Source: Chitinophaga pollutisoli (GTDB lineage Bacteria; Bacteroidota; Bacteroidia; Chitinophagales; Chitinophagaceae). Taken from it: a stretch of 64,000 nt of DNA. Positions 4,714 to 57,300 of this stretch are shown here, one piece after another. A model generated the notes under the pieces. It was not told where the DNA came from. It made no database searches and saw nothing but the letters and a program-made list of their open reading frames with translations. Both the position numbers and the translations under genes were made by a program. The first letter of the stretch is position 1, and each line of letters starts with the position of its first letter. Where the stretch lies: assembly GCF_038396755.1 (NCBI RefSeq), contig NZ_CP149822.1, positions 1,302,001 through 1,366,000 of the forward strand, given 5' to 3'.

Positions 4714-4715
4714 CA

Positions 4716-5444: not shown

Positions 5445-5479
5445 ATCCTGCCTAATCCTGTTGGAAGATGGGCCCAAGG

Positions 5480-5530: not shown

Positions 5531-5661
5531 ATAATAAATCAAGGTAGTTTAATAAAGCGGCGAAACAAGCATGCTTCAGCGATGTAAACCGCCTGGAATT
5601 GATTACATTGCAACCCTTTAACCGGAAACCATTTTCAGCCCATAACCCGGGCTGCTGAAGC

Positions 5662-7457: not shown

Positions 7458-7463
7458 ACGACA

Positions 7464-12104: not shown

Positions 12105-12131
12105 AGAACCGCCAACGTCAAAACCACTACA

Positions 12132-16842: not shown

Positions 16843-16869
16843 TACAGCGGCACAGCAAAATTACCCAAC

Positions 16870-19272: not shown

Positions 19273-19284
19273 ACTGGTTCTATC

Positions 19285-28800: not shown

Positions 28801-28964
28801 ACCCTGACGGTCACCGCAGGCAATGTGGATTCATCAAGAGAATCCGTGACGGTTCCGGTAATATTGATGGATTGTGAAAATGCCGCGGTGCCGCAAAAGG
28901 CGAGCAGCAACAGTAAAACCAATTGCCGCCAACAGACCGGGCAACGGAATATAATTGTATTCAT
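25852..28964 (-). pseudogene. SusC-family TonB-dependent transporter (region 4), interrupted by one frameshift
   Basis: The first frame (28964 down to about 26927) gives a signal peptide (residues 1-31, ending AAFSQ), a carboxypeptidase-regulatory-like domain (INITGTVTDSLDESTLPAVTV), the plug (SLFLRGRATINQTAPIVLIDGIE and ILKDASSTALFGVRGANGVI) and most of the barrel. The remaining barrel, ending in FNFGLNVTF, is in another frame. The shift is at a run of seven G on the coding strand (C7 at 26927-26933). One added G joins LDDITLSGG to YSSSLGLGQYIGINM and yields about 1037 residues, normal for SusC. There is no STN domain, so regulation differs from PUL 1. The break is probably an assembly error; G-tract phase variation is a less likely alternative. 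Confidence 0.88.
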
Positions 28965-40896: not shown

Positions 40897-42243
40897 TTAA
40901 TTTTTGGATATTGATGCGTCATCTTTTATTTTGATATCTTCCAAACGGCTGCGGAGCCTTTCGATATATTTATCGGGCGCCTCCGGCAAGGGAAACCCCG
41001 GCTGCGGGTTTGCGCGGACTGTCAGCAGCGCCTGCAGGGCCTGGCTAGCGTCCTTCAAATCGCAATCAAATTTCTTCACCTGGTATTTTTCAGGAATGCT
41101 GGCTTCCCAGGTGCTGCGGTTCTCAATAAACCGGATGACCTGCTCCAGCGAGTGTTTCGAAGTGCTATCGGCGATGAAGCCGGCGAATTCGCTCACCGAT
41201 TGTTCCGGCGTCCGGGAAGGGTCCTGGCAGAACATTCCGAAGGCGTACACATTCATGGCCTCAATTTCGGAACCTGGACCGTCGGTAAAGCTGAAGATCC
41301 CGTTCAACCCCGCGTTCCGTGCATCGGAAACGATCCGGTGCAGGTAACGGGTCTCCGCCTGGGTGGGGTGTTTCTGCCCGCTGTATCCGGTGTAGCCGTC
41401 GTCCACTTCATCGATGAGGAAATGCGCCCATCCCCACAAATGTTTCACACCGCGCGCCTTCAGCTTTTCGACATCGGCGGCCACGGGATATGGCTCCGGA
41501 TCGCGTTTGGCGTCCGCATAAGCTTTGAAAGCCAGGGAGCGGTAATAATTATGCAAAGGGAATTCGATGCCGCAATCTTTGGTTATGAAACGCTCGTTGG
41601 TGGCGATCATCTTTCCGTAAGCCACTTCCTTGTCCCAAAAATCGACGTAAAAGGGGTTGATCGTTTTATCATCCCAATGGGTGACGGCCCAGATATTGGC
41701 GTTGTAGAAAGCCTGGGGCGCTTCCTTCCTGACGATCGCCTGCACTTTACCGGACATCTCCATCCATTTTTCGATGCCGCTGCGGCCCAGGGGCACAGGC
41801 GCACCGCCGGGATCACCGCCGAAGAACGAAAAGAAATCCGCCTTCGACAGCAACTTCACGCCTGTGGCAATATCATCGAGGCGCATGGCCATCGAATCTT
41901 TGCTATTCGGGTTGAAAGTATCCCACCATTGCAACGGGTGGGGAGAAATATTCGACTGGATGATGACGCCCACTTTGAAGCCGGCACGCTGCGCATCCGC
42001 GATGCCCTTCGCTATACGTTCGTAAAACGCCGCGTGTTCAGCCCTGGGCAGCGATACAGCGATATCGATAAATTGGAGGGTATTGTACCCACAGGCTTTC
42101 CAGAAGCGATAATGCTGCTCCCCCGCAGGATGGAAGGCATATAAACCCACCGTGGGAATGCCTGCTTGCTGCTTTTGCTGCGCGCAGGCATTCCATACGC
42201 CGGAGATGCAAATCAACAAGACAAATAATGCTATGTTTTTCAT
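40897..42243 (-). CDS. Uncharacterised secreted TIM-barrel-like protein, DPGG family subtype II
   Basis: A 448-residue secreted protein, probably a lipoprotein (C20 in VWNAC). It aligns block by block with the lipoprotein at 22683-24032: GLYAFHPAG strand, WKACGYNTLQF, FFGGDPGGAPV with D144, YNANIWAVTHWDDKTINPFYVDFWDKE, PLHNYYRSLAF, LIDEVDDGYTGY, THPTQAETRY-like block and NRSTWEASIPE. It is the last gene of an operon with three subtype I relatives, beginning 10 bases after the nearest one. Secretion and invariant acidic residues suggest an extracellular hydrolase. I recognise no described family. Confidence 0.7.
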   Translation of the reverse strand: MKNIALFVLLICISGVWNACAQQKQQAGIPTVGLYAFHPAGEQHYRFWKACGYNTLQFIDIAVSLPRAEHAAFYERIAKGIADAQRAGFKVGVIIQSNISPHPLQWWDTFNPNSKDSMAMRLDDIATGVKLLSKADFFSFFGGDPGGAPVPLGRSGIEKWMEMSGKVQAIVRKEAPQAFYNANIWAVTHWDDKTINPFYVDFWDKEVAYGKMIATNERFITKDCGIEFPLHNYYRSLAFKAYADAKRDPEPYPVAADVEKLKARGVKHLWGWAHFLIDEVDDGYTGYSGQKHPTQAETRYLHRIVSDARNAGLNGIFSFTDGPGSEIEAMNVYAFGMFCQDPSRTPEQSVSEFAGFIADSTSKHSLEQVIRFIENRSTWEASIPEKYQVKKFDCDLKDASQALQALLTVRANPQPGFPLPEAPDKYIERLRSRLEDIKIKDDASISKN

Positions 42244-42253
42244 ATAACTGCAG

Positions 42254-43810
42254 CTATTTCGTTTTCAAATCTGCCAAAGTCGATTTCATGGCGTTGAGGA
42301 GCCGGGGCGTGTAGGTCTGCACCTTTTCATAGGCATCGGCCGTGCGTTCGGCCGGCGTGGCGCCATCGCCGCGCTCCCACCAGGGCTGGTCCGACAGGAA
42401 GGGCTGCAGGTGCGCCAGGGGAAAGGCTTTCAACGTCTCCGTCATGGCCGGCCAATGCCAATAGCTTTTATAGCCGTGCCTTTGCTGCCATCCATCCGCC
42501 GATGCGATAAATTCCGTGAATGCTTTCATGTTCTCCGCCGAACGGATGTCTGCGTTTTTCGCCAGCATGTCCCGCAAGGTAAACAGCGACGCCGTCATCC
42601 GCAGTTGCGCGATCAGATCCCCGACGAACCGCTTTGGATCGCCGAAGAGCAGGCCGCTTAATTTGCCGGGCTTCAGCTTTGTTTGCTGCAGGCGAGCCAG
42701 CTGCTTTTCGGCGGCTTTAATCCGCGCGATATCCGCGCCTTGCAGCGCTTCCCATCCGGCAACGATGGCATCCCCCGCCCCACCGATCAGCTGGTTGGCG
42801 AAAGCGATGTAATCAGCACGTTCCGCCGGCAGGCCCGCTGCGCCTCTTGCAAAAGCGAACGTATTGGGCAGTTGCATGCAATGCGTTTGCGCGTTGCCGA
42901 AAACCCCGCGGCTGCCTTTGCGCGTTCCCGCATCGTGGGCGCCAGGGCCGTAATTTGTCATCGGGAAAGATGGCTCCCCCTCGATGGCGCCGTAGTTATA
43001 CGCCAGCACCCGGTCCTGCATTGTGGAATCGATCTGTGCACCGTAGCCCAGCCAATGGGTCGCGATGCCCCAGGGGTCTATGCGCTGCCGGTTGATCAGG
43101 GAAAGCGCATCCTGTATTTCGGATTGCTGCCCCATTTTGAAGTTCCCTGTGGCGTGGAATCTTCCATAAGACTCCCAGCCCGTCCAGGCCCAGTAATAGA
43201 TTTCAATGCCCGGCCGCAGGCGGTCCAACATCCGCCGGTGCGCCGCCATGAGGTAGGCGAACTCGATGTTGGTGGAATTGGGGTAACCGCCCGGGTCGCT
43301 GTCGATCATGAAAATCCCGTCGCATTGCCGGAGCGGGCCCATCAGCGTTTCCCGCCACGACATCAGCTTACCCAGCTGCTGCGGATCGCCGGGGTCGATG
43401 TATTCATCCACACCATACACCGGCCGGTTTTCAAATGTGTATTGCGCCGCCAATTCGTTTTTCGCGCGGATGTTCGGGCACAGTACCACAAAAGCCTTCA
43501 TGTTAAATTCCCGGTGCGCCAGTTCGATTATCGCTTTTGTTTTCTCCAGCTGGCGCTGATCGCCCGGCGTGAGCGGCTCGGGCATCGTTTCGAGCATGGG
43601 CCAGATCAGGATGCTGTTGTATCCCAGATGCCGGAGCCCGCCGAGGTAATTGCGCCAATCGTCCAGCGTCCACGTCCGCGCGGCGTATGGATGGTTGTAG
43701 GACCAGCCCAGGTGGATATACATCCCCCGTAACTCATTTACCTTCTCCTGTGCCGCCACGGGATGGAAGCATATTATCATCCAACAGGCAATTACCAGGC
43801 GCCGGATCAT
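42254..43810 (-). CDS. Uncharacterised secreted TIM-barrel-like protein, DPGG family subtype I (copy A)
   Basis: A 518-residue protein with a signal peptide ending near AAQ (residue 21). Conserved blocks shared with copies B and C: GMYIHLGWSYNHPYAARTW, DW..YL..LRHLGYNSILIWPMLETMP, FVVLCPN, a DSDPGGYPNSTNIEF loop with D170 and D172, then YNYGAIEGEPSFP, QLPNTFAFARGA and GWEALQG. The first 300 residues look like a TIM barrel; the rest is helical. It overlaps copy B by 4 bases (ATGA), so the two are translationally coupled. It differs most from B and C (for instance LGW instead of QHW), so it may have another specificity. Confidence 0.7.
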   Translation of the reverse strand: MIRRLVIACWMIICFHPVAAQEKVNELRGMYIHLGWSYNHPYAARTWTLDDWRNYLGGLRHLGYNSILIWPMLETMPEPLTPGDQRQLEKTKAIIELAHREFNMKAFVVLCPNIRAKNELAAQYTFENRPVYGVDEYIDPGDPQQLGKLMSWRETLMGPLRQCDGIFMIDSDPGGYPNSTNIEFAYLMAAHRRMLDRLRPGIEIYYWAWTGWESYGRFHATGNFKMGQQSEIQDALSLINRQRIDPWGIATHWLGYGAQIDSTMQDRVLAYNYGAIEGEPSFPMTNYGPGAHDAGTRKGSRGVFGNAQTHCMQLPNTFAFARGAAGLPAERADYIAFANQLIGGAGDAIVAGWEALQGADIARIKAAEKQLARLQQTKLKPGKLSGLLFGDPKRFVGDLIAQLRMTASLFTLRDMLAKNADIRSAENMKAFTEFIASADGWQQRHGYKSYWHWPAMTETLKAFPLAHLQPFLSDQPWWERGDGATPAERTADAYEKVQTYTPRLLNAMKSTLADLKTK

Positions 43811-45372
43811 GGCTTTTGATTTTCCATTTCCTGCAATGCCACTTTCATGGATTTGATCAGGCGGGGCGTATAATCCTCCAACCGCGCCATCCCGTTTTTC
43901 ACTTTATCAAAAGGCGTTTCCCCTTCATCACTTACCCAGGTGAGGGTGGCGAGGGTAGCGTCGAGTTGTTTTGATTTGAGTTTCGCCAATGTTTCCTGCA
44001 TGGCCGGCCAGTACCAGTGATTGCTGTATCCGTGCGTGCCCTGCCAGGTTTCTGTGGCGGCGATAAAGGCTGCCAGTTTCTTTTTCACGACAGCCTGCTG
44101 CGGCGTTCCGTTTAATGCTGTTTTCAGTTCATGCATCGCGCTGACAACGCGAAGCTGCAGCACCAGGTCGTTCACGAACCTCGCGGGATTCCGGAATAGC
44201 AGCCCTTCGAGCCGGCCGCTTTTCAGCGAAGCGGGTTTCAGGGCGGTAAGGTTCCTGATGCAATTGTTCATTCTCGCCACATCTTCGCCCTGCAGCGCTT
44301 CCCAGCTATCCACGATAAGTTTTCCCTGGCCGGGTATGAGATCGTTGGCGAATGTGATGTAATCTTCGGTGGCAACGGGTTTGCCCTGTGCGCCCCTGGC
44401 AAAGGCGAATGTGTTCGGCAACTGGATGCAATGCGTTTGCGCGTTGCCCATCGTGCCGCGTTGCCCGCCGTTCTTACCGCCGTTGTAGGCCCTGTCGCCG
44501 CCGTAGAGGGTGAACGGGAAAGAAGGCTCACCTTCAATCGCGCCGTAGTTGTAGGTGATGACGCGGTTCCCCATGCCGAGGGAGTCCGCAATACCCGGAC
44601 CGTAGCCGCTGCCCACACCCCAGGGCTCCATGCGCTGGCGGGAAAGCAGGCTGATCGCGTCCATGATTTCGGAGGGCTCGCCGCGCTTCAGTTCTCCCGT
44701 GGCGTAAAAATGCCCATACGACTGCCAGCCGAAGTTGGCCCAGTAATCTACCTGGATACCTTTGCGCAGGCGGTCCAGCATTTTACGATGGGCTTGCAGC
44801 AGGTACACGAATTCCATGTTGGTGGAGTTGGGATAACCGCCGGGGTCGCTGTCGATAATCGACATACCATCCGCTTTTGCCAGCGGCCGGAACAGCTCTT
44901 CCCGCCATGCCATCAGCTTACCGAATGCCACAGGGTCTCCGGGATCCACGCGCTCGTCCGTATGGAAGAAAGGCCGCTTCTCGAATGTATATTTCCTACC
45001 TTCTTCGCTTTTGGGGGAAACATTCGGACAAAACACAATGGTAACCCGCATATCGTAGTCGGCATGCGCCATATCGATCACTCTGGCGATCTTTTGCAGG
45101 TTGGCTTCATCGCTGGGCGTCAGCGGGTTGGGCATAATTTCCAGCATGGGCCAGATCAGGATGGAATTAAATCCCAGTTTATGAATGCCATCCAGGTAAC
45201 CTTTCCAGTCCTCCAAAGACCAGGTTCTGGCAGCGTAAGGGTTGTTGTAAGACCAGTGCTGGTGGATGTACATCCCTACTTCCTTCCTGTTCGCGTTTTG
45301 CTGTGCTTTCACCTGCGTGACCAGGCACATCGCCATGAAAGCGATCAATGATAATCTCAACTGTAACTTCAT
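43807..45372 (-). CDS. Uncharacterised secreted TIM-barrel-like protein, DPGG family subtype I (copy B)
   Basis: A 521-residue secreted protein with the signal peptide ending VKAQ (residue 24). It carries GMYIHQHWSYNNPYAARTW, ILIWPMLEIMPNPLTPSDE, FCPNVSPKSEEGRKYTFE, DSDPGGYPNSTNMEFVYLL with D174, YNYGAIEGEPSFPFTLYGG, GNAQTHCIQLPNTFAFARG and SWEALQGED. It is very close to copy C at 48299, clearly closer than to copy A, so at least two duplications occurred. It starts 31 bases after the SGNH hydrolase stop. Confidence 0.7.
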   Translation of the reverse strand: MKLQLRLSLIAFMAMCLVTQVKAQQNANRKEVGMYIHQHWSYNNPYAARTWSLEDWKGYLDGIHKLGFNSILIWPMLEIMPNPLTPSDEANLQKIARVIDMAHADYDMRVTIVFCPNVSPKSEEGRKYTFEKRPFFHTDERVDPGDPVAFGKLMAWREELFRPLAKADGMSIIDSDPGGYPNSTNMEFVYLLQAHRKMLDRLRKGIQVDYWANFGWQSYGHFYATGELKRGEPSEIMDAISLLSRQRMEPWGVGSGYGPGIADSLGMGNRVITYNYGAIEGEPSFPFTLYGGDRAYNGGKNGGQRGTMGNAQTHCIQLPNTFAFARGAQGKPVATEDYITFANDLIPGQGKLIVDSWEALQGEDVARMNNCIRNLTALKPASLKSGRLEGLLFRNPARFVNDLVLQLRVVSAMHELKTALNGTPQQAVVKKKLAAFIAATETWQGTHGYSNHWYWPAMQETLAKLKSKQLDATLATLTWVSDEGETPFDKVKNGMARLEDYTPRLIKSMKVALQEMENQKP

Positions 45373-45403
45373 CTTGCAATATTTTTAAACTGATTTGTTC
45401 TGA

Positions 45404-46033
45404 TTATTGATAGCTGCGTTCTATGGCTTTCTCCAGCAGCGGCCGCATTTTTTCGTATCCCGCGCGGTTGGGATGAACGCCATCCCCCGTCAGAGCCCTA
45501 TCCAGCCCTCGTTGCGCATTGGCCAATACGGGAAAATAATCCACATATGGAATCCCTTCTTCCCGGCAATAATTACTGATTTTATCGTTCAGTGCGGCGA
45601 TGAGCGGCACGGGCTTCACGGATTTGCAGCAGGCATATTCATAGGCGGGGATCACCGAGCACAGGATTACGCTGATACCGTTGGCTTTCGCCAGCGCGGC
45701 CATTTTCACGATATGCTGGAATATCGAATCAACTGGCAAATGTCCACCAAGTCCCGCGATATCGTTGGTACCGCCGAGGATCACCACTGCATGGGGATGC
45801 AAATCCAGCACATCCGCCTGGAAGCGCGCCAGCATCTGGCGCGTCGTTTGCCCGCCGATGCCTTTATTGATGAAAGGCTTGCCGGTAAAGAATTCCGGCA
45901 TCAGGGCCTGCCAGCCTTGCGTGATGGAATCGCCCATGAAAACAACGGGCTTTTTCCGTTCCTCTGCGCGCTTCGTTGCCGCGCAGCCCAGCACCAGGCA
46001 GCACAACACAACCCATGTAAAACGGTAAGTCAT
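45404..46033 (-). CDS. SGNH/GDSL-family hydrolase lipoprotein
   Basis: This 209-residue lipoprotein (lipobox cysteine C17, LVLGC) shows all four SGNH blocks: VVFMGDSITQGW (block I, catalytic Ser), NKGIGGQTTRQML (block II, Gly), ILGGTNDIAG (block III, Asn) and DGVHPNRAGYEKM (block V, Asp and His). Proteins of this kind are esterases or acetyl-xylan/carbohydrate deacetylases. Its place inside an operon of secreted putative hydrolases suggests that it removes ester groups from the same polymer before or during cleavage. Confidence 0.9.
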   Translation of the reverse strand: MTYRFTWVVLCCLVLGCAATKRAEERKKPVVFMGDSITQGWQALMPEFFTGKPFINKGIGGQTTRQMLARFQADVLDLHPHAVVILGGTNDIAGLGGHLPVDSIFQHIVKMAALAKANGISVILCSVIPAYEYACCKSVKPVPLIAALNDKISNYCREEGIPYVDYFPVLANAQRGLDRALTGDGVHPNRAGYEKMRPLLEKAIERSYQ

Positions 46034-46062
46034 AAATATTGGATATTAACATTCGGCGCCGG

Positions 46063-46827
46063 CTAATGCATCATCCAGCCGCCATCCGCATTTAAAGTCT
46101 GGCCGGTTACAAAATCGCTGTCGGCGGACGCCAGGAAAACGAACACGCCAACGATATCGTCCGTTTGCTGCCGCCTGGGGATGGCCTGCGCCCCGAGCAG
46201 GAATTCTGTCGCTTTTTCCTGGGCTTCCTTCGAGCCCACTTTCTCCAGTTCCGTTTCGGTAAGCACCGCGCCAGGTGTGATACAGTTGACCATAATATTA
46301 TCGGCGCCCAGCTCCCGGGACAGCGCCCGCGTGAACCCGATCACCGCGCCCTTGGACGCCACGTAATGCACATAATTCCGTGTACCGGCGAAAAAAGTGA
46401 CCGACGACACGTTAATGATCTTTCCATATTTCCTTTGCTGCATATAGGGATAAACGGCTTTGGCGCAAACGAACTGCGACCGCACGTTGTTGGTCATCAC
46501 CCGGTCCCATTCCGCGACGGTGATCTCATGCCAGGCTTTCCGGGGGTCGATAGCGGCGTTGTTCACCAGGATGTCGACTCCGCCGAAGCGGTCCGCCGTT
46601 TGCCGGACCATCCTTTCCACCGCTGCTTCATCGGCCACATCCGCCGCGATGGCGATGGCTTCACCGCCCTGCGCGGTGATCTGATCCACCACCTCCGCCG
46701 CCAGTTCGGGATGCGCGAGGTGATTCACCACTACTTTCGCACCTTCCGCTGCGAAACGCAGCGCCACCGCTTTGCCGATGGACTGCGCCGCACCGGTAAT
46801 TATGGCCACTTTATCTTTCAATCGCAT
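46063..46827 (-). CDS. Short-chain dehydrogenase/reductase (SDR)
   Basis: A 254-residue classical SDR. The nucleotide-binding motif is TGAAQSIG, with Ser at the middle position where most family members have Gly. NNAAI, the catalytic Ser in INVSSVTFF and YVASK (catalytic Tyr and Lys) are present, and the C-terminus reads SDFVTGQTLNADGGWMMH. It probably oxidises or reduces a hydroxyl of a sugar or sugar acid taken in by the MFS porter encoded 17 bases upstream. In the proposed hydrolytic pathway it would be the 3-deoxyonate dehydrogenase; a uronate or ketose reductase role is also possible. Confidence 0.9.
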   Translation of the reverse strand: MRLKDKVAIITGAAQSIGKAVALRFAAEGAKVVVNHLAHPELAAEVVDQITAQGGEAIAIAADVADEAAVERMVRQTADRFGGVDILVNNAAIDPRKAWHEITVAEWDRVMTNNVRSQFVCAKAVYPYMQQRKYGKIINVSSVTFFAGTRNYVHYVASKGAVIGFTRALSRELGADNIMVNCITPGAVLTETELEKVGSKEAQEKATEFLLGAQAIPRRQQTDDIVGVFVFLASADSDFVTGQTLNADGGWMMH

Positions 46828-46844
46828 ATCAAGTCTGTTTAGTA

Positions 46845-48266
46845 TTAAACTTTCCGCTGGCGGTCGCGCCAGAACTCACTTATTTTCTCCAGGCTGAGGC
46901 CTTTGGTTTCGGGCACCATTTTCCAGGAGAACAATGCGCAGGCTGCGCAGATCGCCGCGAAGATCCAGTACACGCCGGCGGCGCTGTCGAAGGTTTCAAT
47001 GAACCATTCCGTCAGCATCGGGAAAAACTGCGCGGTTACGAACGACGCGGCGTACAGGAAGAAGCATACCACAGCCAGCGCTTTGCTGCGGATACGGTTC
47101 GGGTAAATTTCCGACACGATTACCCAGCTGAGCGGCGCCAGCCCGAGTGTAAACGATCCGGTTCCGATAAGCATCGGTACGAGGGTGAACATCGGCGGCC
47201 AGTGCATTTGCAGGTTAATTGCCATAATGATATGCCCCAGCGCCATGAGCAACACGCTGGTAATCAGCAGCCCGCGGCGGCTGAAGCGCCGGATCAGGCC
47301 GAATGCCAGGATGGTGGTCAGTAAAATAAGCAGATAGATGGGAATGGAACTGAGGATGGCATTGGAGCCCACGCTGATACCGGATTCCGCCAGGATGCTC
47401 GGGGCATACATCAGCATCATATTCACGCCGTTGATCTGCGAGAATATCATGATAACGATCCCGATGAACAAAGCCGTTTTGATACCCGGCTGGAACAATT
47501 CCCGGAAAGCGCCCGTCTCTTGTTTCAGTTCTTTTTCAATTTCCTTCATCTCCAGCTCGCTTTGCTCCGGCCCGTTGATCCGCGATAAAACCTTCAGCGC
47601 TTCACCGATACGGTTGCGCGCCGCCAGCCAGCGCGGGCTTTCGGGGATCAGCAGCAAGCCTGCGATGAGCAGCGCCACCGGTACTGCCTGCGCGGCAAAC
47701 ATCCAGCGCCAGCCCCATCCTTCGAAGGAAAAGACATAACTGGTAATCACCGCCAGGTTGATACCGATCACATTCGACAGCTGGTTAACGTTCACCAGCA
47801 CGCCTCTCAGGTGCGGCGGCGACAATTCCGCGATATAAATCGGCGACGACATCATCGCCAGGCCAATACCCACGCCGCCGAAGAAGCGCCATACCGCGAA
47901 GTCCCATATTCCGCTGGCGGCGGCGGTTCCTATGGTGGATATCATAAAGAAAAACGCGGCCAGCATCATGGTTTTGCGTCGTCCCAGCCGCTCCGTGAAC
48001 CACATGCCGAACAGCGGCCCCGTTACCGCGCCCAGGATCGCACTGCTGACGGCGAACCCTTTCATGGCGGCCGACAAATTAAAATCCGCTTCCAGGAAAG
48101 GCAGCGCGCCGGCGATCACCACCAGGTCGAATCCGAACAGGAATCCGCCGATGGATGCCACCAGCACGATGGCATAAATATATAACCTGCCTGCCTTCGG
48201 GACCGGAGCCCGCTTTCTGCCCGGGTCCTGTTCTATCGTGTTGACCACTATATTGCCGTGAGCCAT
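46845..48266 (-). CDS. MFS sugar porter
   Basis: This 473-residue transporter has twelve predicted membrane helices and the sugar-porter signatures: GFLFGFDLVVIAGALPFL in helix 1, a WFTERLGRRKTM loop between helices 2 and 3, IYIAELSPPHLRGVL after helix 4, PESPRWLAARNR before the central loop and PETKGLSLEKI at the end. It should import a mono- or small oligosaccharide (or sugar acid) across the inner membrane by proton or sodium symport. It sits between a secreted DPGG-family gene and the SDR, so it probably carries the product of those extracellular enzymes. Confidence 0.93.
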   Translation of the reverse strand: MAHGNIVVNTIEQDPGRKRAPVPKAGRLYIYAIVLVASIGGFLFGFDLVVIAGALPFLEADFNLSAAMKGFAVSSAILGAVTGPLFGMWFTERLGRRKTMMLAAFFFMISTIGTAAASGIWDFAVWRFFGGVGIGLAMMSSPIYIAELSPPHLRGVLVNVNQLSNVIGINLAVITSYVFSFEGWGWRWMFAAQAVPVALLIAGLLLIPESPRWLAARNRIGEALKVLSRINGPEQSELEMKEIEKELKQETGAFRELFQPGIKTALFIGIVIMIFSQINGVNMMLMYAPSILAESGISVGSNAILSSIPIYLLILLTTILAFGLIRRFSRRGLLITSVLLMALGHIIMAINLQMHWPPMFTLVPMLIGTGSFTLGLAPLSWVIVSEIYPNRIRSKALAVVCFFLYAASFVTAQFFPMLTEWFIETFDSAAGVYWIFAAICAACALFSWKMVPETKGLSLEKISEFWRDRQRKV

Positions 48267-48298
48267 ATTGCTTGTTGATTGTAGAAGTTATAAAAATT

Positions 48299-49873
48299 TT
48301 ACCTGCCGCCCATTTCCGCAAGCGCCTGCCGCATAGCTGCCAGAAGCCTCGGCGTGAAGGATTCCATGCGCGCCAGGCCGTTTTTCACCCGGTCGAATGC
48401 CGTGGCGCCTTCCTCACTGGTCCAGGTATGCGTGTCCAAAGTGGCATTGATCGGCGCCAGATTCAGTTTGCGCAGGGTGGATTCCATTTGCGGCCAGTGC
48501 CAGGAATTGCTATAACCATGTTGACCCTGCCAGGCGGATGCTGCGTCCACGAAACCCGCCAGCGCCTTCTTTTTGGCCGCTGCGTTTTTGTTTCCGTCCA
48601 CAACGGCTTTCAGTTCATACAGCGATGCCGCCATGTTCAGTTGCAGCGCCAGGTCGCGCACAAACCCCGCGGGGTCGCCGAACATCAGTCCTTTCAGCGG
48701 CCCGCCCTGCAATGCGCTCTTCGGCATGCCCGACAATTGCTTCGCGGCTTTGCGCATGCGCGCGGCGTCTTCGCCCTGCAGCGCTTCCCATCCTTCCACG
48801 ATATTCTTCCCGGCGCCGGGAATGAGCTCATTGGCGAAAGCGGTGTAATCTTCCTTCTCCACGCTTTTCCCCTGCGCACCACGGGCAAAGGCAAACGTAT
48901 TGGGCAACTGCACCACATGCGATTGCGCATTGCCCAGCACCCCGCGTTTGCCGCCCCTTTTTCCGCCGCCGGAAGCGCGGTCGCCGCCGTAAATAGTGAG
49001 CGGGAACGCCGGCTCGTATTCGATGGCGCCGTAAGGGAATGCCAGCACTTTGTCCTGCATCCCGATCGGGTCGGCGAAGTTATCGTCGAAGCCGCTGTTG
49101 GCCACGCCCCAGGGCTCGTAATGTTGTTTGGCGAGCAATTGCATCGCTTCGCGGATTTCCTCAGGCCCGCGTTTCACGAGTTCGCCGGTAGCGTAGAAGT
49201 TACCATAAGACTCCCAACCGAAGTGCGCCCAGTAATTGATTTCGATACCCGGACGCAGGCGATCCAGCATCCGGCGGTGCGCGCCGAGGATATAAATGAA
49301 CTCCATGTTGGTAGAATGCGGGTAACCGCCGGGGTCGCTGTCGATCACAAAGAGCCCGTCGGCCTGCGCGAGTGGTTTGAACAGCCTCTCGCGCCATTCC
49401 ATCAGTTTACCGAAAGCGATGGGATCGCCGGGATCTACCCGGTCGTCGGTATGGAAAAAGGGCCGGTCTTCGAAGGTGTATTTACGTCCCTCTTCGCTTT
49501 TGGGCGAAACGTTGGGGCAGAATACGATGGATACCCGCATGTTGTAATCCTGGTGCGCCATATCGATCACTTTCGCGATTTTGGCCAGGTTGGCTTCGTC
49601 GCTGGGCGTGAGCGGGTCGGGCATGATTTCCAGCATGGGCCAGATGAGGATGTAATTGTATCCCAGGCGGTGGAGGCCGTCGAGGTATCCTTTCCAGTCT
49701 TCCAGCGTCCAGGTGCGGACGGCGTAGGGATGTTTGTAGGACCAGTGCTGGTGCATGTACATGCCCAGTATTTTTTCCGTTGTAGCCGGCTTTGTGGCGG
49801 CGGTTTGCGCGGATGCGCCGTGCATGGCAATAACAGCCCAGCAAGCGATAAATATCTTTATTGCTTTGATCAT
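48299..49873 (-). CDS. Uncharacterised secreted TIM-barrel-like protein, DPGG family subtype I (copy C)
   Basis: A 524-residue secreted protein with a signal peptide (residues 1 to about 22, ending ASAQ). Blocks match copy B closely: GMYMHQHWSYKHPYAVRTW, ILIWPMLEIMPDPLTPSDE, FCPNVSPKSEEGRKYTFE, DSDPGGYPHSTNMEFIYIL with D178, GAIEYEPAFPLTIYGG, NAQSHVVQLPNTFAFARG and GWEALQGED. It heads the seven-gene operon running to 40897. An intrinsic-terminator-like hairpin lies 18 bases upstream of its start, so it may be controlled by attenuation or start from a promoter beyond that hairpin. Confidence 0.7.
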   Translation of the reverse strand: MIKAIKIFIACWAVIAMHGASAQTAATKPATTEKILGMYMHQHWSYKHPYAVRTWTLEDWKGYLDGLHRLGYNYILIWPMLEIMPDPLTPSDEANLAKIAKVIDMAHQDYNMRVSIVFCPNVSPKSEEGRKYTFEDRPFFHTDDRVDPGDPIAFGKLMEWRERLFKPLAQADGLFVIDSDPGGYPHSTNMEFIYILGAHRRMLDRLRPGIEINYWAHFGWESYGNFYATGELVKRGPEEIREAMQLLAKQHYEPWGVANSGFDDNFADPIGMQDKVLAFPYGAIEYEPAFPLTIYGGDRASGGGKRGGKRGVLGNAQSHVVQLPNTFAFARGAQGKSVEKEDYTAFANELIPGAGKNIVEGWEALQGEDAARMRKAAKQLSGMPKSALQGGPLKGLMFGDPAGFVRDLALQLNMAASLYELKAVVDGNKNAAAKKKALAGFVDAASAWQGQHGYSNSWHWPQMESTLRKLNLAPINATLDTHTWTSEEGATAFDRVKNGLARMESFTPRLLAAMRQALAEMGGR

Positions 49874-50015: not shown

Positions 50016-50915
50016 TTAACATTGGTCCGCGCACTTGGCGATGCTGCATTTGTACTGGTAAGGACTTTGGCCGATGCGTTCCCGGAAGACCTTGCAGAAG
50101 TGGGAATTGGAATTGTACCCGCACAGGCTGGCGACTTCGGAAATCGGTTTATCCATTTCGATCAGCAGTTTGCAGGCATGCGCCATGCGTTGGTCTACCA
50201 GGTATTGCAGGAACGTCTTTTTCGTCTTGTTCTTGAAAAACCGGCAGAACGAAGGCACTGTCATGCAGGCGACTTCCGCCACCTGTTCGAGGGTGATTTG
50301 TTCATGCAGGTTGAACTTGATAAAATTGATCACTTCCAGCAGCCGGTCCGAGTGCGAAACCGGTTCTTCCACGTCTTTATTGATGATCAGGTTTTTTTCC
50401 GCGGAGATGGAAATAATATTCATGATTTGCAATAATTCCAGCACTCTTTCGAAGCCGGTTTTGGAAGACAGGGCGATAAGCTTCTCCGCGATTACGTTCC
50501 GTGTTTCCCCGAAGATATTGATGCCTTTGGAGGCTTGTTTGATCATTTCGCGGATGGCGTCGAATTCGCTGACGAAATCGAACATCTGCTGGAATATTTT
50601 CGGGTTGATGTACACGGTGATGACTTTCGAACGGAGGTTGGACCCTTCTTCGTAGAACACGGGATCGCTGAGCCAGATATGTGGGACGTTGGAACCGATG
50701 AATACCATATCTCCCGGTTCGAATGGCGCGACTTCGTTACCGATGATCCTTTTGCCGAAGCCTTCCAGGATGAAAGTCAGTTGCAGTTCAGGATGCTTGT
50801 GAAACGACGCCTGTTCGTTATTCAGTGAAGACAGGAAAGGTTGATCCCTAAAATCCAGGTACAGAGAATTGTTGATAAACGGAGTGATTTCGGTTTGTAG
50901 CAGCCTCATGTCCAA
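50016..50915 (-). CDS. AraC-family transcriptional regulator
   Basis: This 299-residue regulator has an N-terminal cupin-like sensor domain (FHKHPELQLTFILEGFGKRIIGNEV, then FEPGDMVFIGSNVPHIWL). A helical linker follows, then a C-terminal AraC DNA-binding domain of two helix-turn-helix units (about residues 195-290: LHEQITLEQVAEVACM, then ISEVASLCGYNSNSHFCKVF and RERIGQSPYQY). It sits in the middle of region 7, between the aminotransferase gene and the operon of secreted proteins, so it is the best local candidate for controlling those genes in response to a sugar. It should act as a cytoplasmic dimer. Confidence 0.93.
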   Translation of the reverse strand: MDMRLLQTEITPFINNSLYLDFRDQPFLSSLNNEQASFHKHPELQLTFILEGFGKRIIGNEVAPFEPGDMVFIGSNVPHIWLSDPVFYEEGSNLRSKVITVYINPKIFQQMFDFVSEFDAIREMIKQASKGINIFGETRNVIAEKLIALSSKTGFERVLELLQIMNIISISAEKNLIINKDVEEPVSHSDRLLEVINFIKFNLHEQITLEQVAEVACMTVPSFCRFFKNKTKKTFLQYLVDQRMAHACKLLIEMDKPISEVASLCGYNSNSHFCKVFRERIGQSPYQYKCSIAKCADQC

Positions 50916-51002: not shown

Positions 51003-52307
51003 TCACAACGTCGCCATTACGTCGGACGCCGCAGCCACGGCGCGCTCTATGTCTTCCCCGGTATGTGCGGTGCTGATGTACCATAATCCCCTCCCGATGA
51101 CCCTTACTTTCCGGTCGTGCAGCCCTGCGATGAACTTGCCGAGCTTCGCTTTGTCGTATGTAAAAGTATCCCGGTAATCCCTGACCTGTTCCAGATGGGT
51201 GAAACCGGTGTTGAACATAGGGCCCGGTCCTTGCACCAGCATCGGTTGCCCGTGGCGTGCCGCCGCTTCGCGCAGACCATCCATGAGCCGGTTGCCCAGT
51301 GCGAACATACGGTCGTAAGGCTGTTCCTGCTCCAGCACCTCGATCGTAGCCAGCGCGGCGGCGATGGTGGCGTTGCTGGAGTTCATCGTGCCGGCGTGGA
51401 TCACCTTCGCGCTTTCGATCAGGCCCATCCATTCGCGCTTGCCCACGATGGCGCTGATGGGGTAACCGCTGCCCATGGCTTTGGCGAAGATGGACATGTC
51501 CGGCGAAATGCCGAAATACCGTTGCGCCCCTCCGATCGACAACCGGAAGCCGGTAATCACTTCATCGAAGATCAACGCAATACCGTATTGGTCGCATAAT
51601 GCGCGAAGCCCTTGCAGGAAGCCCTCTTGCGGTGGAATGCACCCGCTGTTGCACATTACCGGCTCGGTGATGATCCCGGCGATTTCGTGGTGATGCGATG
51701 CGAGTTTCGTTCTCAGCAGGTCAAGGTCGTTCCAGGGCAGGATGATGAATTCGTTCCTGGCCTGTTCCGGCAAGCCGCCCGACCAGGGCCAGGCCACCGG
51801 TTCTTCACGGGGGCCGAGCGATGCCGCGTCCGGCGCGGAGATTCCCCAGGCCACGTTATCGAGCCAGCCGTGGTAATGCCCTTCAAAGCGGAGGAATTTT
51901 TGCTTCCCTGTTTTCGCCCGCGCCACCCGGAATGCCGTTTGCACCGCTTCCGACCCGTCGAGGCAAAAACGCATCAGCTCCGCCGATGGCACCAGCGCCG
52001 ATAGTTTTTCCGCCAGTTCGATCTCCCGGATGTGCTGGCCTGCGAAGAGCTGGCCCGGTTCCGAATATTCCGTGACCGATTTGAGCACATGCGGATGGGA
52101 GTGCCCCAGGATCAGGGGGCCCTGGCTTAACGTAAAATCCAGGTACTCGTTGCCGTCCACGTCGTACACGCGGCTACCTTTGCCATGCGTGTAAAATATA
52201 GCGTGGGGGTGGTTGTACTTCCGGAATTCGGAAGACACGCCGCCCGCCAGCACCTTCTTCGCCCGTTCCAATAATTTTGCTGATTCAGTATATGCTATGC
52301 GCTCCAT
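51003..52307 (-). CDS. Class III PLP-dependent aminotransferase (glutamate-1-semialdehyde aminomutase-like)
   Basis: This 434-residue fold-type I enzyme has the family blocks YDVDGNEYLDFTLSQGPLILGH, FCLDGSEAVQTAFRVARA, FEGHYHGWLDN, a LIFDEVITGFRL metal/cofactor Asp segment and FAKAMGSGYPISAIVG with the PLP lysine. It resembles HemL-like aminotransferases, but the setting, between a hydrolase locus and an AraC gene, argues against tetrapyrrole synthesis. Transfer of an amino group to or from a sugar- or lactone-derived keto compound is more likely. The AraC gene starts 87 bases downstream on the same strand. Its amino-acid partner is unknown. Confidence 0.88.
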   Translation of the reverse strand: MERIAYTESAKLLERAKKVLAGGVSSEFRKYNHPHAIFYTHGKGSRVYDVDGNEYLDFTLSQGPLILGHSHPHVLKSVTEYSEPGQLFAGQHIREIELAEKLSALVPSAELMRFCLDGSEAVQTAFRVARAKTGKQKFLRFEGHYHGWLDNVAWGISAPDAASLGPREEPVAWPWSGGLPEQARNEFIILPWNDLDLLRTKLASHHHEIAGIITEPVMCNSGCIPPQEGFLQGLRALCDQYGIALIFDEVITGFRLSIGGAQRYFGISPDMSIFAKAMGSGYPISAIVGKREWMGLIESAKVIHAGTMNSSNATIAAALATIEVLEQEQPYDRMFALGNRLMDGLREAAARHGQPMLVQGPGPMFNTGFTHLEQVRDYRDTFTYDKAKLGKFIAGLHDRKVRVIGRGLWYISTAHTGEDIERAVAAASDVMATL

Positions 52308-52434: not shown

Positions 52435-55400
52435 TTAAGCCAATGTCAGATGTATCATATACTTCACCAGCTGATCGTCGACCAGCAGGTCCTTTCCGTT
52501 TGCAAGCCGTTGCGTTACTTTCACCGGGGGCTTCACACCGTCGCTGATTGCCACGCCGGTAATTTTCCGGCCAAAACTGATCTTCGACGGCGCGGTGGCC
52601 ATGAATTGAATTTGCTTCGCCTGCAGCAGATCCTGCCCGTCCGGCGCCGAAAGGATGATCCTGCCATGGGGTAAATTGCACAACAGTCTGCCGTTGATCC
52701 GCAATTCGCCGCCGCCTTCCATGAGCGCAACGCCTTTGCGGGTGATGTGTACCATCCCGAAATCGCTGACCGTTAACCCTGCGCCGGTTTTCCCGTATTG
52801 CAAGGCAACTGTGTGGGCAACGGGCCTGGTATCCGCGGGCTGTTCCGCCGCCAATGTAAACAACATGCCGTATTCGGTACGGCGCGCCAGCAGCTTCACC
52901 TGCTCCCCGTTTTTCACGTCCACTTTTTCGAATGCATGGCAATCCTTCCAGGCGTCGGGCCCTTCGAATACGGTTATGCCCTTGCTGCGCAGGGCGTTGA
53001 GCGCGGAGGGATTGGTAAGCGGATGGGGGCAAATGACGGCTTTCGTGCCTGCGGGTATCGCCTCCAGCGCGGATTCCTGCCAGACGCCGAACAGGGCTTT
53101 CCCGGCCCAGAGTGCAGCCAGCGTTTTTTTGACCGGCTCCATGGCCGACAGGTTGCCCGCAGGCACAATGATGTATACTTTTTCTGGCACCGAGACCCGT
53201 TGGAGCCCTTTGCCCATCAATCCCAGCCGACCCAGCGCAATCGCAGCGTCCGCAGGGAACGGCGTACCGTGATACACCGAACCGTAGCCGGTACCGCTGG
53301 GCGTGGGGCAAAGCCCTACCCCGCGCTCGAACCATGCGGAATCCAACCCGAGGTATGGCGGGAACCAGCGCGGATCGGGTTCCAGCTGCGACGCTTCCCG
53401 GAGGGGAAGCGGCCAGTAGCAGGATTCACGGGCAAACCAGCTCACGCCCCATTCGTACGACATGGCGCATGCCGCGCCGCCCGCCAACGCGTAGTGAACG
53501 GAAGCGTCGTAATACGCGAGGTTGTTCCATTTGCCGTTGCCGAACTCTTCAATGATCACCGGACGGTTGGAGCCGATGGGATCGAAATATTGTGCAGACA
53601 AACCGGCCTGTTCCGGTGGCAGGTAGTTATGCCAGGGCAGGATCGGCGCGTCCTCGTTGGCGAGATAGGTATCGCCGCCGTCCATCGTGGAGAACATGTA
53701 TCCCGGCATCACCGGCTGCATGCCGCCCGCAGCGCGGATGGCGGCCGTCATTTCGTTGGACCAGCGGCGGAACAACAGGGAATCGCGCACGGTGCCTTTC
53801 TGGGCGGGGATCCCTCGCCAGGTGGCCACTTCCGCATCCATCTGCGTTTCGTCCGGATCTTTCAGGTATACTTCGTTGGCGAGGTTATAGATGATATTGC
53901 CCGCATCTTTCCATCTTGCCGCCAGCAATCCTACCAGTTCGCGTTGCAGCCCGAGGTTGCGCAGCGAGAAGCTGACGATATTGAAATCCCTTTCATGCCG
54001 GTATTCGAAATACGCGTGCGTTCCATCGGGCCTTTCGAAGCCCATATGGCGCGCCCATTGCGTAAAAATGCAGATATCCAGCACGAGCCCGTGTTCGGCC
54101 GCCAGCTGAATGGCGGCGTCCATCGCGCGCAGTACGGGCTCGTCGGTGACGGGGTCCACCCACACCCGCACGATGCGGTAACCGGCTTTGCGGATGGCGG
54201 CAAAATCCTCGGCCACTTTCAACGGATGGAAATCGCGCCAGGCCCATTCCCACCAGGAAGTGGAGGGATAATAATGCGTACCCGACCAGAAGCCCTCTTC
54301 CCCTTCCAGCACGATACTGGGGCCTTTTACGGCTAAAATGGGGGGCGTTTGCAGCGAGGGTTCCTGCACCACGAAACCGATGAATCGTTGATCGATTACT
54401 ATCTGTTCGCCTTCCAGCGCGAGCAATGCGGCCTTGTCCACATCCTGGAAGATCTCGAGCCGGATGGTCCACATCCCGAGGCCCCCGGCGGGTTTGAAAT
54501 CACACAACACTTCCGTGTCGCTGCCGCCGGAAGCCACCCGGCGGGTGGTGATCAGCGGCGTAAACGCAGCGGCGCCGGGGGCTTTCACGGAATAGCGGAA
54601 TGTAGCCGCCACCGCCTGGGTGCCCTGGTTCTGCACGCGGGTCCGCAGTTGCACCCGCTCCCCGGGATGATATGCCGCGTAATTCGATTGATGCGCATAT
54701 ACCTGCAAACCACCTTTCCACCGCGCAGCCGTTTTTTGCAGCAGGGCCAGCCAACTTTTGGTGTCCAGCGCCGCCAGCGGATCGTTGAATAAGTAGAACC
54801 AGCAGTCACTGCCCCTGAACCTCCCCGCCGCCAGCGATGGCGCGTAATAGCTCATCAGCACGCCGGGGTATCCGGACAGGTTCCCGAACTGGTCGTATGC
54901 TTCGAGCACGGGCAGGAAATCGGCCCGTACTTCTTCATCAATGTTATGATTGGGCATCTCCTTCGGTGGAGCGATATAAGCCGAATGAGCCACCGCCGGT
55001 TTGAACGCGATATCCTCCAGGATCACCGGTGCGTTAGCGGCAACGCTTACAGCCATAGCGGCTTCCGACGGACGAAATCCGCCTACCGACAAAGCCGCCG
55101 GTATCCCTTCCGGCTTACCCACCCAGATCATGCCGTTGCCCGCAGCCAGTTGCTGCAGCAGCTTAGCTTCGTCCAGCTGATGCCGCGGATACGGCACGAT
55201 GTTCGCCGGCAAACCGCCACCCACAGCTGTCAGGAAAGCGCTATCGGCCACCAGGTACAAAACGGATTGCCTGCCCGCATCGGTGGCCGCGCTCTTATCA
55301 AAAGCGGTATCCGTGGTTCCGGGAAGTCCGGCATCCGGCCCGGTGGCGGGCGGTTCGGCCGGCTTGTCCGGGGAACTGCCCCAACCGGCCAGGGGCGTCA

Positions 55401-55452
55401 CCACGCCGGCCGAGCCCAGAGCCAGTAATCTCAGCGATTCTCTTCTGTTCAT
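52435..55452 (-). CDS. Large exported clan GH-A (GH5/GH2-like) glycoside hydrolase
   Basis: A 1005-residue protein opening with a twin-arginine-like signal (NRRESLRLLALGSAGVV). A region of about 200 residues follows that I cannot assign, then a beta-sandwich (about 245-345). A GH-A-type TIM barrel covers about 385-690: IRKAGYRIVRVWVDP, acid/base N526-E527 in YNLANEVY and nucleophile E636 (or E635) in PVIIEEFG, the N-E and E motifs of clan GH-A. Beta-rich domains close the protein. No family number can be given; GH5-like mannanase/galactanase relatives are possible. It is the last gene of the SusC-SusD-M81-SMP30-UxuA unit, so it probably acts on the polymer bound by that SusD. Confidence 0.72.
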   Translation of the reverse strand: MNRRESLRLLALGSAGVVTPLAGWGSSPDKPAEPPATGPDAGLPGTTDTAFDKSAATDAGRQSVLYLVADSAFLTAVGGGLPANIVPYPRHQLDEAKLLQQLAAGNGMIWVGKPEGIPAALSVGGFRPSEAAMAVSVAANAPVILEDIAFKPAVAHSAYIAPPKEMPNHNIDEEVRADFLPVLEAYDQFGNLSGYPGVLMSYYAPSLAAGRFRGSDCWFYLFNDPLAALDTKSWLALLQKTAARWKGGLQVYAHQSNYAAYHPGERVQLRTRVQNQGTQAVAATFRYSVKAPGAAAFTPLITTRRVASGGSDTEVLCDFKPAGGLGMWTIRLEIFQDVDKAALLALEGEQIVIDQRFIGFVVQEPSLQTPPILAVKGPSIVLEGEEGFWSGTHYYPSTSWWEWAWRDFHPLKVAEDFAAIRKAGYRIVRVWVDPVTDEPVLRAMDAAIQLAAEHGLVLDICIFTQWARHMGFERPDGTHAYFEYRHERDFNIVSFSLRNLGLQRELVGLLAARWKDAGNIIYNLANEVYLKDPDETQMDAEVATWRGIPAQKGTVRDSLLFRRWSNEMTAAIRAAGGMQPVMPGYMFSTMDGGDTYLANEDAPILPWHNYLPPEQAGLSAQYFDPIGSNRPVIIEEFGNGKWNNLAYYDASVHYALAGGAACAMSYEWGVSWFARESCYWPLPLREASQLEPDPRWFPPYLGLDSAWFERGVGLCPTPSGTGYGSVYHGTPFPADAAIALGRLGLMGKGLQRVSVPEKVYIIVPAGNLSAMEPVKKTLAALWAGKALFGVWQESALEAIPAGTKAVICPHPLTNPSALNALRSKGITVFEGPDAWKDCHAFEKVDVKNGEQVKLLARRTEYGMLFTLAAEQPADTRPVAHTVALQYGKTGAGLTVSDFGMVHITRKGVALMEGGGELRINGRLLCNLPHGRIILSAPDGQDLLQAKQIQFMATAPSKISFGRKITGVAISDGVKPPVKVTQRLANGKDLLVDDQLVKYMIHLTLA

Positions 55453-55475: not shown

Positions 55476-56453
55476 TCATGATTTCTTCTCGTATTCCGCG
55501 GCTTCCAGCAAGCCTTTCAGGTACCCCAACGCAAAGAGGCGCCCCACTTCGCCGTAACCCGGTTCGCGGTTGTTCTCACCGTCCATCGTTGGCACATGGT
55601 CGATCCGCACGGGCCCGTCGAATGCAACGGTGGTATAGGCTTTCACGGCGGCGTACATATCGGTTTGGCCATCGTCGTGGAACGTTTCGGAAAACGCATG
55701 TGCCTGGCCGCGGATGTCGCGGAAATGCACGAAGAAGATTTTCCCGGCTTTCCCCAGCTCAAGAATTTCGTGCGGGATGTCTGCCCCTGCCGCGGCGAGG
55801 CTGCCCTGGCACAGGGTAACACCGCTATTGGCGCTGGGCACCAGGTTGATGGCGCGCTTCAACGCCGCGGGGCTGGTAATGATCCGGGAAATCCCCTGGA
55901 TGGGCGATACAGGGGGATCGTCCGGGTGCAGCGCCAGTTTTACGTTAGATGCTTCCGCCACGGGAATCACCCTTTCGAGAAAGTATTGCAGGTTATCCCA
56001 TAACCTTTCTTCCGGCACAATGCCCGCCGGCGTAAGCGGCGCGTCTTTCATCAGCGCGTGGTTGTAACTCGTTACCAGTGCGCCTCCGCGGGTGGGTGTA
56101 GACACGGAGGTGCGGAGCCAGTTGAATCCCGCCATAAAATTGTAACAGAACACGGGAATGTCCAATGCTCCCATATTCCGGATCAGCTGCTGGCACAGGG
56201 CGATGTCTTCATCCCGCCCTTCTATACCCAGTTTCATCCGGTGCATTTGCGCATCCAGCCCGGGTTCTATCACTTCCAGCTTAAAGCCGAAATCATCAAA
56301 ACGCTGCTTCATATGCAGCAGGTCCATGTACTCGTAAGAGGGCGTACCGTCTGCCTGCACCGGCAACCGGGCTACCGCATGTGTTACGCCTGCCTGTTTA
56401 GCCAGCCTCCAAAGCCGGTCGGGGTACTGTGACAGCACTTCTGCTATTTTCAT
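55476..56453 (-). CDS. Mannonate dehydratase (UxuA)-like enzyme
   Basis: This 325-residue cytoplasmic TIM-barrel protein belongs to the UxuA family, which dehydrates D-mannonate to 2-keto-3-deoxygluconate. Supporting segments: KLALHPDDPPVSPIQGISRI, SGVTLCQGSLAAAG (family Cys/Gln site), FFVHFRDIRG, FSETFHDDGQTDM and RIDHVPTMDGEN, which carry the His, Asp and Cys metal and catalytic residues. It is shorter than E. coli UxuA (about 390), as seen in shorter family members. Its neighbours are a lactonase and an M81 protein, not UxuB or UxaC, so the true substrate may be another aldonate. Confidence 0.88.
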   Translation of the reverse strand: MKIAEVLSQYPDRLWRLAKQAGVTHAVARLPVQADGTPSYEYMDLLHMKQRFDDFGFKLEVIEPGLDAQMHRMKLGIEGRDEDIALCQQLIRNMGALDIPVFCYNFMAGFNWLRTSVSTPTRGGALVTSYNHALMKDAPLTPAGIVPEERLWDNLQYFLERVIPVAEASNVKLALHPDDPPVSPIQGISRIITSPAALKRAINLVPSANSGVTLCQGSLAAAGADIPHEILELGKAGKIFFVHFRDIRGQAHAFSETFHDDGQTDMYAAVKAYTTVAFDGPVRIDHVPTMDGENNREPGYGEVGRLFALGYLKGLLEAAEYEKKS

Positions 56454-56475: not shown

Positions 56476-57300
56476 TTATAATTTGATACTTGATACGCCT
56501 CCGGGCCCGGGTTCTCCGTATCCGCCCGTCACGATGATTTCTCCCGGCAGCAGGCAGAGGTTGCTGGTGAGCGGGTAACCTGTCCGGATCGTATCCACTA
56601 ATTTTCCGTCTTCATCCAATATCTGTACGGCCTGCATGCCGTAATGCGCTACGTACAACAATCCGTCGCGCCCCATCCTGATGCCGTCGGGCAGGTTTTG
56701 AATAATGTCTCCGGAAGGATGTTCGGGCAGCATCGCCCATTCTTCCCACTTCCCGGCTGGCTGCCCCGGCCCGCGAAGGGCGCAGGTCATGATCCGGTTG
56801 CGATAGCTTTCGGCTACAAACAGGCGTTTGCCATCCGTGCTGAGCGCGATGCCATTGGGGAAATCAAAATCGCGGCCCACGATGCGCTGCGATCCGTCTG
56901 TCCCGAAATAGCACACCTTGCCCGTTTCCCGCACGGAATCCGTGAAGTATATCCCGCCATGGGCATCCGCCGTGAGATCGTTGGGCGCACCCAACGCCTG
57001 GCCGTCGCAATGGTCCTTGATGGCATAGCCTTTAAACCCGCCGTCCCCGCCAAACCTGGCGATGCCCGCCTGCCCGCTGTCGCAGATGAGATGATCGCCA
57101 TCTGGCAGGATGTACTGGCCGTTGGGGCACTTCGCGTAAGCCCAGTGAGACATCTTCCCTTCCGGGTTGATTTTGAAAATGATGCCACCGGTCAATGTGG
57201 TAAAAAACAGGTTCCCCTGTGCATCCATAACCGGGCCTTCCGTGTACCAGGGCAGTTCCGCCAGCCGTTCAACGATCGTGACCGAAATCATCTTGTTCAT
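56476..57300 (-). CDS. SMP-30/gluconolactonase family lactonase
   Basis: A 274-residue beta-propeller of the SMP-30/regucalcin family, which opens sugar lactones with one divalent metal. The metal-site blocks are present: WYTEGPVMDAQGNLFFTT with the Glu ligand, GAPNDLTADAHGGIYFTD with the Asn ligand and FPNGIALSTDGKRLFVAES, then PDGIRMGRDGLLYVAHYG with the Asp ligand. There is no signal peptide. Its start overlaps the M81 stop by 4 bases, so the two are coupled. The UxuA-like gene follows 22 bases downstream, giving a natural lactone to aldonate to keto-deoxy-acid order. It is a second, divergent copy of the function at 34775. Confidence 0.9.
   Translation of the reverse strand: MNKMISVTIVERLAELPWYTEGPVMDAQGNLFFTTLTGGIIFKINPEGKMSHWAYAKCPNGQYILPDGDHLICDSGQAGIARFGGDGGFKGYAIKDHCDGQALGAPNDLTADAHGGIYFTDSVRETGKVCYFGTDGSQRIVGRDFDFPNGIALSTDGKRLFVAESYRNRIMTCALRGPGQPAGKWEEWAMLPEHPSGDIIQNLPDGIRMGRDGLLYVAHYGMQAVQILDEDGKLVDTIRTGYPLTSNLCLLPGEIIVTGGYGEPGPGGVSSIKL

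Follow-up and report, generated by a model that had tools for sequence, protein, structure and literature searches.

Which function is served by a set of related proteins, most of them encoded in a single run of genes of Chitinophaga pollutisoli, for which no described family can be named? The window, i.e. the whole stretch of 64,000 nucleotides analysed here (NCBI RefSeq assembly GCF_038396755.1, contig NZ_CP149822.1, positions 1,302,001 to 1,366,000), codes for five such proteins, hereafter called DPGG proteins after their Asp-Pro-Gly-Gly loop: copies A, B and C of type I and copies II-1 and II-2 of type II. The genome (6.08 Mb, one contig) has three type I and two type II genes. With somewhat better than even confidence, the DPGG proteins are proposed to be secreted glycoside hydrolases of an unnamed family with three subtypes, consisting of a barrel and a helical C-terminal part as in GH84, GH20, GH67, GH115 and GH138.

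The DPGG sequence family

Copies C and A have 51 and 63 % amino acid sequence identity with copy B, respectively. The initial annotation described four DPGG copies, all of which are present, but overlooked the fifth (II-2) and the continuation of the gene run to a SusC gene. The motifs it quoted were verified in the sequences of the copies, both the shared ones (G(M/L)Y, LG(Y/F)N or CGYN, and DPGG) and those specific to type I (GAIEGEPSFP-like and QLPNTFAFARG) or type II (HWDD and DEVDDGYTGY). The DPGG loop, present in the window copies, is nevertheless variable in the wider family: ADWG(G/A)C replaces GDPGG in subtype III (loci L017, L026, L032 and L033), and one type II protein has DPGA.

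The type I alignment contains 26 sequences, three from the window and 23 from elsewhere (44–65 % identical to copy A). Its profile aligned with that of six type II/III sequences at a probability of 98.7 (E 1.7e-16, 268 columns), and slightly different sets gave 96.0 for types I and II, 96.5 for I and III and 100 for II and III. The type II/III profile also picked up type I genes in a search of the genus, at E 4e-7 to 8e-6. Since the relationship is supported by both the 26-sequence alignment and the profile homology, it is beyond chance, and by sequence comparison types I and II are homologous.

No family was found for A, B, C or II-1 in Pfam or NCBIfam (June 2026), the sole Pfam line (PsbI, E 0.41) being noise, and searches of PDB sequences with A and II-1 gave nothing convincing (best E 0.21), in agreement with the earlier statement that no described family could be recognised. 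A PDB sequence search with a wider profile matched LacZ (7e-4) over one stretch and, weakly, GH67. No paper on the family was found in the open-licence literature with narrow search terms. As judged against Pfam, NCBIfam and PDB, the DPGG proteins thus appear to be a sequence family that is new but has a known fold.

Longer relatives with an additional N-terminal stretch align to types I–III at 13.5–100 %, the one in L039 being near type I (100 % over 433 columns). Relatives in L034, L035, L037, L042, L045, L052, L055, L019 (4689-6974) and L025 (3518-6682), most of them longer, matched no Pfam family above the cut-off in the barrel region, and some of them carry Cys-rich variants of the DPGG loop; these relatives are possibly further unnamed families. 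Natural fusions also occur: in L009 a single reading frame (18882-21557) joins domains of types I and II, and the type II protein of L031 runs into an SGNH domain with 49 % identity to the window esterase over 201 residues.

Predicted fold and export

Structure prediction, suggested in the initial annotation, gave a TIM barrel for both subtypes with AlphaFold2 (pLDDT 92.6 for A and 85.5 for II-1). In both models a (beta/alpha)8 barrel, beginning at residue 31-35, is followed by a helical part at the C-terminus. The DPGG proteins are probably secreted, as was claimed earlier, their hydrophobic N-termini being compatible with export in a crude hydropathy analysis. The top match of both models in the VIA comparison was GH84, with 6–13 % identity in the rows, and the helical C-terminal parts of both also matched glycosidases. 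Foldseek placed GH20C first for A.

Conserved residues and putative active site

Among the 26 type I sequences H41, E82, D178, D180, E285 and H319 are invariant, located at or just after strands 1, 2, 4, 4, 7 and 8, respectively, and conserved positions are enriched on the catalytic face of the barrel (39/128 vs 29/171, p 0.008). The invariant positions of seven type II/III sequences include D144, W185, W190, H231, Y234, R235, D278, D281 and D282. The claim that all copies keep the same acidic residues did not hold: in the profile alignment of types I and II, type II has Gly in the place of D178 and a gap in that of E82, near which II-1 has an Asp (D60) that II-2 lacks. The Asp of the DPGG loop, D180 in A and D144 in type II, is the sole acid at the same aligned place across all subtypes, and is for this reason the best candidate for a general acid. 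In the proposed mechanism this universal Asp after strand 4 would act as the acid, whereas the base or nucleophile would be an acidic residue after strand 7 (E285 in type I, and D278, D281 or D282 in types II and III), the placement of D180 and E285 being judged from strand positions.

The locus and the proposed pathway

The seven open reading frames (ORFs) from copy A to II-1 were found at the positions given in the initial annotation (Table 1). All are on the minus strand, separated by 32, 17, 29, 31, -4 and 10 bases, a spacing from which they may be co-transcribed. The run extends beyond 40897..49873 up to the SusC gene, which adjoins a SusD gene with degradative genes alongside, as in a polysaccharide utilization locus (PUL).

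Table 1 Genes of the DPGG locus and of the second type II copy in the window
Feature	Position	Strand	Remarks
SusC-like TonB-dependent transporter	60388..63633	(-)	
SusD-like protein	58810..60357	(-)	
M81/MlrC-type metallo-hydrolase	57297..58796	(-)	
SMP-30/gluconolactonase-like protein	56476..57300	(-)	
UxuA-family mannonate-dehydratase-like protein	55476..56453	(-)	
1005-aa protein, distant GH5-type domain	52435..55452	(-)	PF00150, E 1.7e-6
Class III PLP aminotransferase	51003..52307	(-)	HemL/GntE-related, under both curated cut-offs
AraC-type regulator with cupin domain	50016..50915	(-)	Pfam/NCBIfam
DPGG type I copy A, 524 aa	48299..49873	(-)	Retained in the reduced locus of congener G750
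MFS sugar porter	46845..48266	(-)	PF00083, TIGR00879
SDR oxidoreductase	46063..46827	(-)	PF13561
SGNH/GDSL esterase	45404..46033	(-)	PF13472, E 1.3e-28
DPGG type I copy B, 521 aa	43807..45372	(-)	
DPGG type I copy C, 518 aa	42254..43810	(-)	4-base overlap with copy B
DPGG type II copy 1 (II-1), 448 aa	40897..42243	(-)	
DPGG type II copy 2 (II-2), 449 aa	22683..24032	(-)	44 % identical to II-1; beside another SusD/SusC pair

With its SusC/SusD pair, regulator, hydrolases and porter the locus resembles the PULs of Bacteroidota, but it differs from them in two of its genes, those for the M81 hydrolase and the class III aminotransferase, enzymes that are not known from described PULs; a literature search found no paper combining MlrC with both PUL terms. 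In the proposed pathway SusC and SusD would capture sugar chains, which the type I and II DPGG proteins, the GH5-like protein and the SGNH esterase would trim outside the cytoplasm. The product would be imported by the MFS porter and converted by the M81 hydrolase, lactonase, UxuA-like dehydratase, SDR and class III aminotransferase. The substrate may be a glycan or glycoside whose breakdown releases an acid sugar bearing an amine or amide.

Elsewhere in the window, the SusC gene beside II-2 appears as two ORFs on the minus strand (25852-26883 and 26802-28964), which overlap in different frames and so suggest a frameshift or decay. A second SMP-30 lactonase gene also appears as two ORFs that overlap and differ in frame (34775-35389, for which Pfam was run, and 34822-35673, plus strand). 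Large enzyme-like genes (14596-21036) follow a further SusC/SusD pair (8739-14021, plus strand), and two of them, 14596-16842 and 19285-21036, both on the plus strand, belong to the same cluster.

Aminotransferase association

Clustered class III aminotransferases were found in 11 of 20 DPGG loci, including the window, and in 6 of the 14 loci not labelled Bacteroidota (raw counts). They do not form a single ortholog group, an explanation which was rejected: seven loci have a HemL/GntE-like enzyme, recognised by family models in the window, L019 and L023 and by 69–74 % identity to the window protein in L009-L012, whereas family models identified a PRK05769-like enzyme in four (L017, L022, L024 and L026). 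The recruitment of two subfamilies suggests that amine handling is part of the pathway. In L128 another aminotransferase gene directly follows a type I gene.

Close homologs of the window aminotransferase were also found in four other 20-kb stretches. Those of L122-L124 adjoin RidA-like, 3-hydroxyacyl-dehydrogenase-like and M19 dipeptidase genes, and in two of the three a serine-dehydratase-like gene (Pfam names from L123), and that of L125 occurs with M81 and SMP-30 genes. A conserved cassette in L122 (G000:C1:392000-411900), shared with L123 and L124, comprises a RidA-like, two dehydrogenase-like, an aminotransferase, an M19 dipeptidase and a ceramidase-like gene (Pfam from L123).

Comparison with known families and alternative functions

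Types I, II and III were compared directly by profile (hhalign) with GH84, represented by one sequence, GH67 and DUF4838. As a positive control GH67 aligned with DUF4838 at 96.5 %; the single GH84 sequence reached only 32–35 % against both, so the comparison with GH84 is weak in general. Direct membership of GH84, GH67 or DUF4838 was rejected on the lack of Pfam matches for A, B, C and II-1 and on low hhalign values. For GH84 there was no PF07555 match at E up to 1, and the one sequence aligned with types I-III at 0.1–0.4 %, although GH84 (O-GlcNAcase) shares the arrangement of a TIM barrel and then a helical domain. The catalytic pair of GH84 is an adjacent Asp-Asp after strand 4, unlike the D178-S-D180 of type I or the single D144 of type II. 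GH20, as represented by GH20C (S. gordonii GcnA), differs in that the window copies have no PF00728 match and in that A and II-1, whose barrel starts so close to the N-terminus, lack a preceding domain. GH67 gave no PF03648, PF07488 or PF07477 match and an hhalign value of 0.3 % for type I. GH115 and GH138 are likened to the models by fold; the Pfam search gave no match to either, which would tell against them only if Pfam covers both families. DUF4838, listed as GH163 in PMC9870897, gave no PF16126 match and aligned with types I, II and III at 0.5, 0.6 and 23 %. The larger relatives L042 and L055 reached 89 % against it, in an alignment that includes an Asp followed by a Cys motif, and another group reached 79 %.

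Several observations weigh against DPGG proteins being glycoside hydrolases of a nitrogen-related pathway. In the profile comparison GH84, GH67 and DUF4838 reached just 0.1–0.5 % against type I and at most 27 %, over 34 columns, against types II and III. The enrichment on the catalytic face of type I is not significant for Asp, Glu and His only (8/128 vs 5/171, p 0.25). At least two (E82 and D178) of the four acids invariant on the type I face are missing from type II, of which the segment containing D281 and D282 (residues 279-289) is modelled with pLDDT below 50. TIM-barrel proteins other than hydrolases were matched as well, xylose isomerases by A in Foldseek (query TM 0.31–0.35, rmsd 18–20) and a xylose-isomerase-like domain (4ovx) by II-1 (rank 14, TM 0.50 by own length), and no reported activity was found for any DPGG member. 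Nine of the 20 loci (L013, L014, L015, L016, L018, L020, L021, L025 and L027) have no clustered aminotransferase; several of these are short contigs, L013 and L009 come from one genome, the member in L014 escaped the ORF caller, and the genome of L020 does have an aminotransferase beside another type I gene, in L128. The same aminotransferase family occurs without DPGG genes in the 20-kb stretches of L122-L125, and is therefore not DPGG-specific.

A narrower form of the proposal, possible but rather unlikely, is that the DPGG proteins are uronidases resembling GH67, GH115 or GH138, in which the strand-4 acid and a strand-7 base would remove a glucuronic- or galacturonic-type residue for degradation by UxuA, lactonase and SDR. 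The sequence hints of this are all short or under curated cut-offs, GH67 is as distant from type I as noted above, and the FGGY kinase and lyxose-isomerase-like cupin of other loci would fit neutral sugars equally well. N-acetylhexosaminidases similar to GH84 or GH20, in which the strand-4 acids would assist the 2-acetamido group of the substrate and the aminotransferase would handle the amino sugar, would agree with the top VIA and Foldseek matches, with the two Asp after strand 4 in type I and with the aminotransferases in 11 of 20 loci; they are considered unlikely in view of the single Asp of type II, the D-x-D spacing of the pair in type I, as opposed to the adjacent pair of GH84, and the absence of PF07555 and PF00728 matches from the four window copies tested.

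PULs can encode glycan-binding proteins without activity, and such proteins, or sugar isomerases, on a TIM barrel would account for the isomerase matches of both models. This appears improbable, as the catalytic face is where residues shared across phyla are enriched, the similarity of A to the isomerases is low by both TM and rmsd, and the helical C-terminal part resembles that of glycosidases. It is about as doubtful that the family already has a CAZy number absent from Pfam and NCBIfam, given the outcome of the Pfam, NCBIfam, PDB and literature searches, the last within open-licence papers and with narrow terms.

History of the copies and comparison with congeners

Between the window and congener G746 the dN/dS values of A, B, C and II-1 were 0.06, 0.05, 0.12 and 0.05, from which these copies are maintained by purifying selection. 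All 15 genes of the locus are present in G746 in the same order with 82–99 % identity, the SDR being matched over 132 of 254 residues and the M81 gene being cut by the end of the stretch. The tree places B together with a gene of L009, and C together with genes of L010 and L009, both groupings having 100/100 support, so that recent duplication inside this genome was rejected for B and C; the placement of A is weakly supported (91/53). The type II copies were placed by similarity only, II-1 being nearer to proteins of L010 and L031, and II-2 to the fusion protein of L009. That duplication produced different specificities, as the initial annotation had supposed, is plausible.

A second congener, G750, has a single type I gene, which is also what the type II/III profile matched in its genome, and lacks type II genes. 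Its reduced locus keeps SusD, M81, UxuA, GH5-like, aminotransferase, AraC, copy A, MFS and SDR genes. Within the 19.9 kb compared, the SGNH gene and the SMP-30 gene of the locus had no match over half their length, and SusC would fall past the end; there is a match to the other lactonase gene of the window, at 34822. From this reduced locus copy A looks like the core member, and B, C, the type II copies and SGNH look like an add-on module.

Distribution

One genome per species (84,980 species) was scanned with two short peptide patterns, by which divergent members are missed, and 19 loci were obtained out of 98 candidate stretches. Their labels are Bacteroidota, Hydrogenedentes, Planctomycetes, Armatimonadota, Acidobacteriota, Chloroflexota, Nitrospirota, Verrucomicrobiota, one archaeal metagenome-assembled genome (MAG) and one plain 'bacterium'; since most of the loci are MAG contigs, single labels are possibly wrong. 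The type I gene of L018 (labelled Sigynarchaeota) groups with a gene from a Chloroflexota MAG (99/95), and L018 may be a misbinned contig or the result of transfer. Adjoining the type I gene of L027 is a gene (4308-7460, plus strand) for a Planctomycete protein of 1050 amino acids with six PF05638 (Hcp) stretches and a weak planctomycete export motif.

Genome samples show that the family is rare. Among the 296 genomes of a phylum sample one contained type I, and among the 195 of a family sample one contained type II, in both cases the genome of C. pollutisoli itself. Three of 79 genomes of the genus contained type I, as did 2 of 246 genomes around Planctomycete G495, namely G495 and one with a weak match (1e-11). 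The type II/III profile was searched against 16 genomes from 17 loci, the genome of L026 being left out, and gave some match in 14; strong matches were limited to five, G480 and G481 (type II) and G487, G490 and G492 (subtype III), the others being weak cross-matches to type I or larger relatives. No relatives were detected with the type I profile among 28 stretches of viral contigs, nor with copy B (tblastn) on plasmids.

Significance of the DPGG family

A broader proposal, put forward tentatively and at somewhat under even confidence, is that types I, II and III are undescribed secreted glycosidases allied to GH20, GH67, GH84, GH115 and GH163 that open an acidic, nitrogen-containing glycan or glyco-conjugate without a known catabolic locus, and that a route of amine removal is marked by the genes linked to them, namely those for the M81 hydrolase, the lactonase, the dehydratase and class III aminotransferases of two subfamilies. 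If true, the map of glycan degradation would gain an enzyme family whose active site is predicted and whose locus is defined, with a sparse occurrence that ranges from Bacteroidota to contigs with the labels Planctomycetota, Armatimonadota and Acidobacteriota. The pairing with two aminotransferase subfamilies would then suggest a class of substrates that standard carbohydrate annotation has overlooked.
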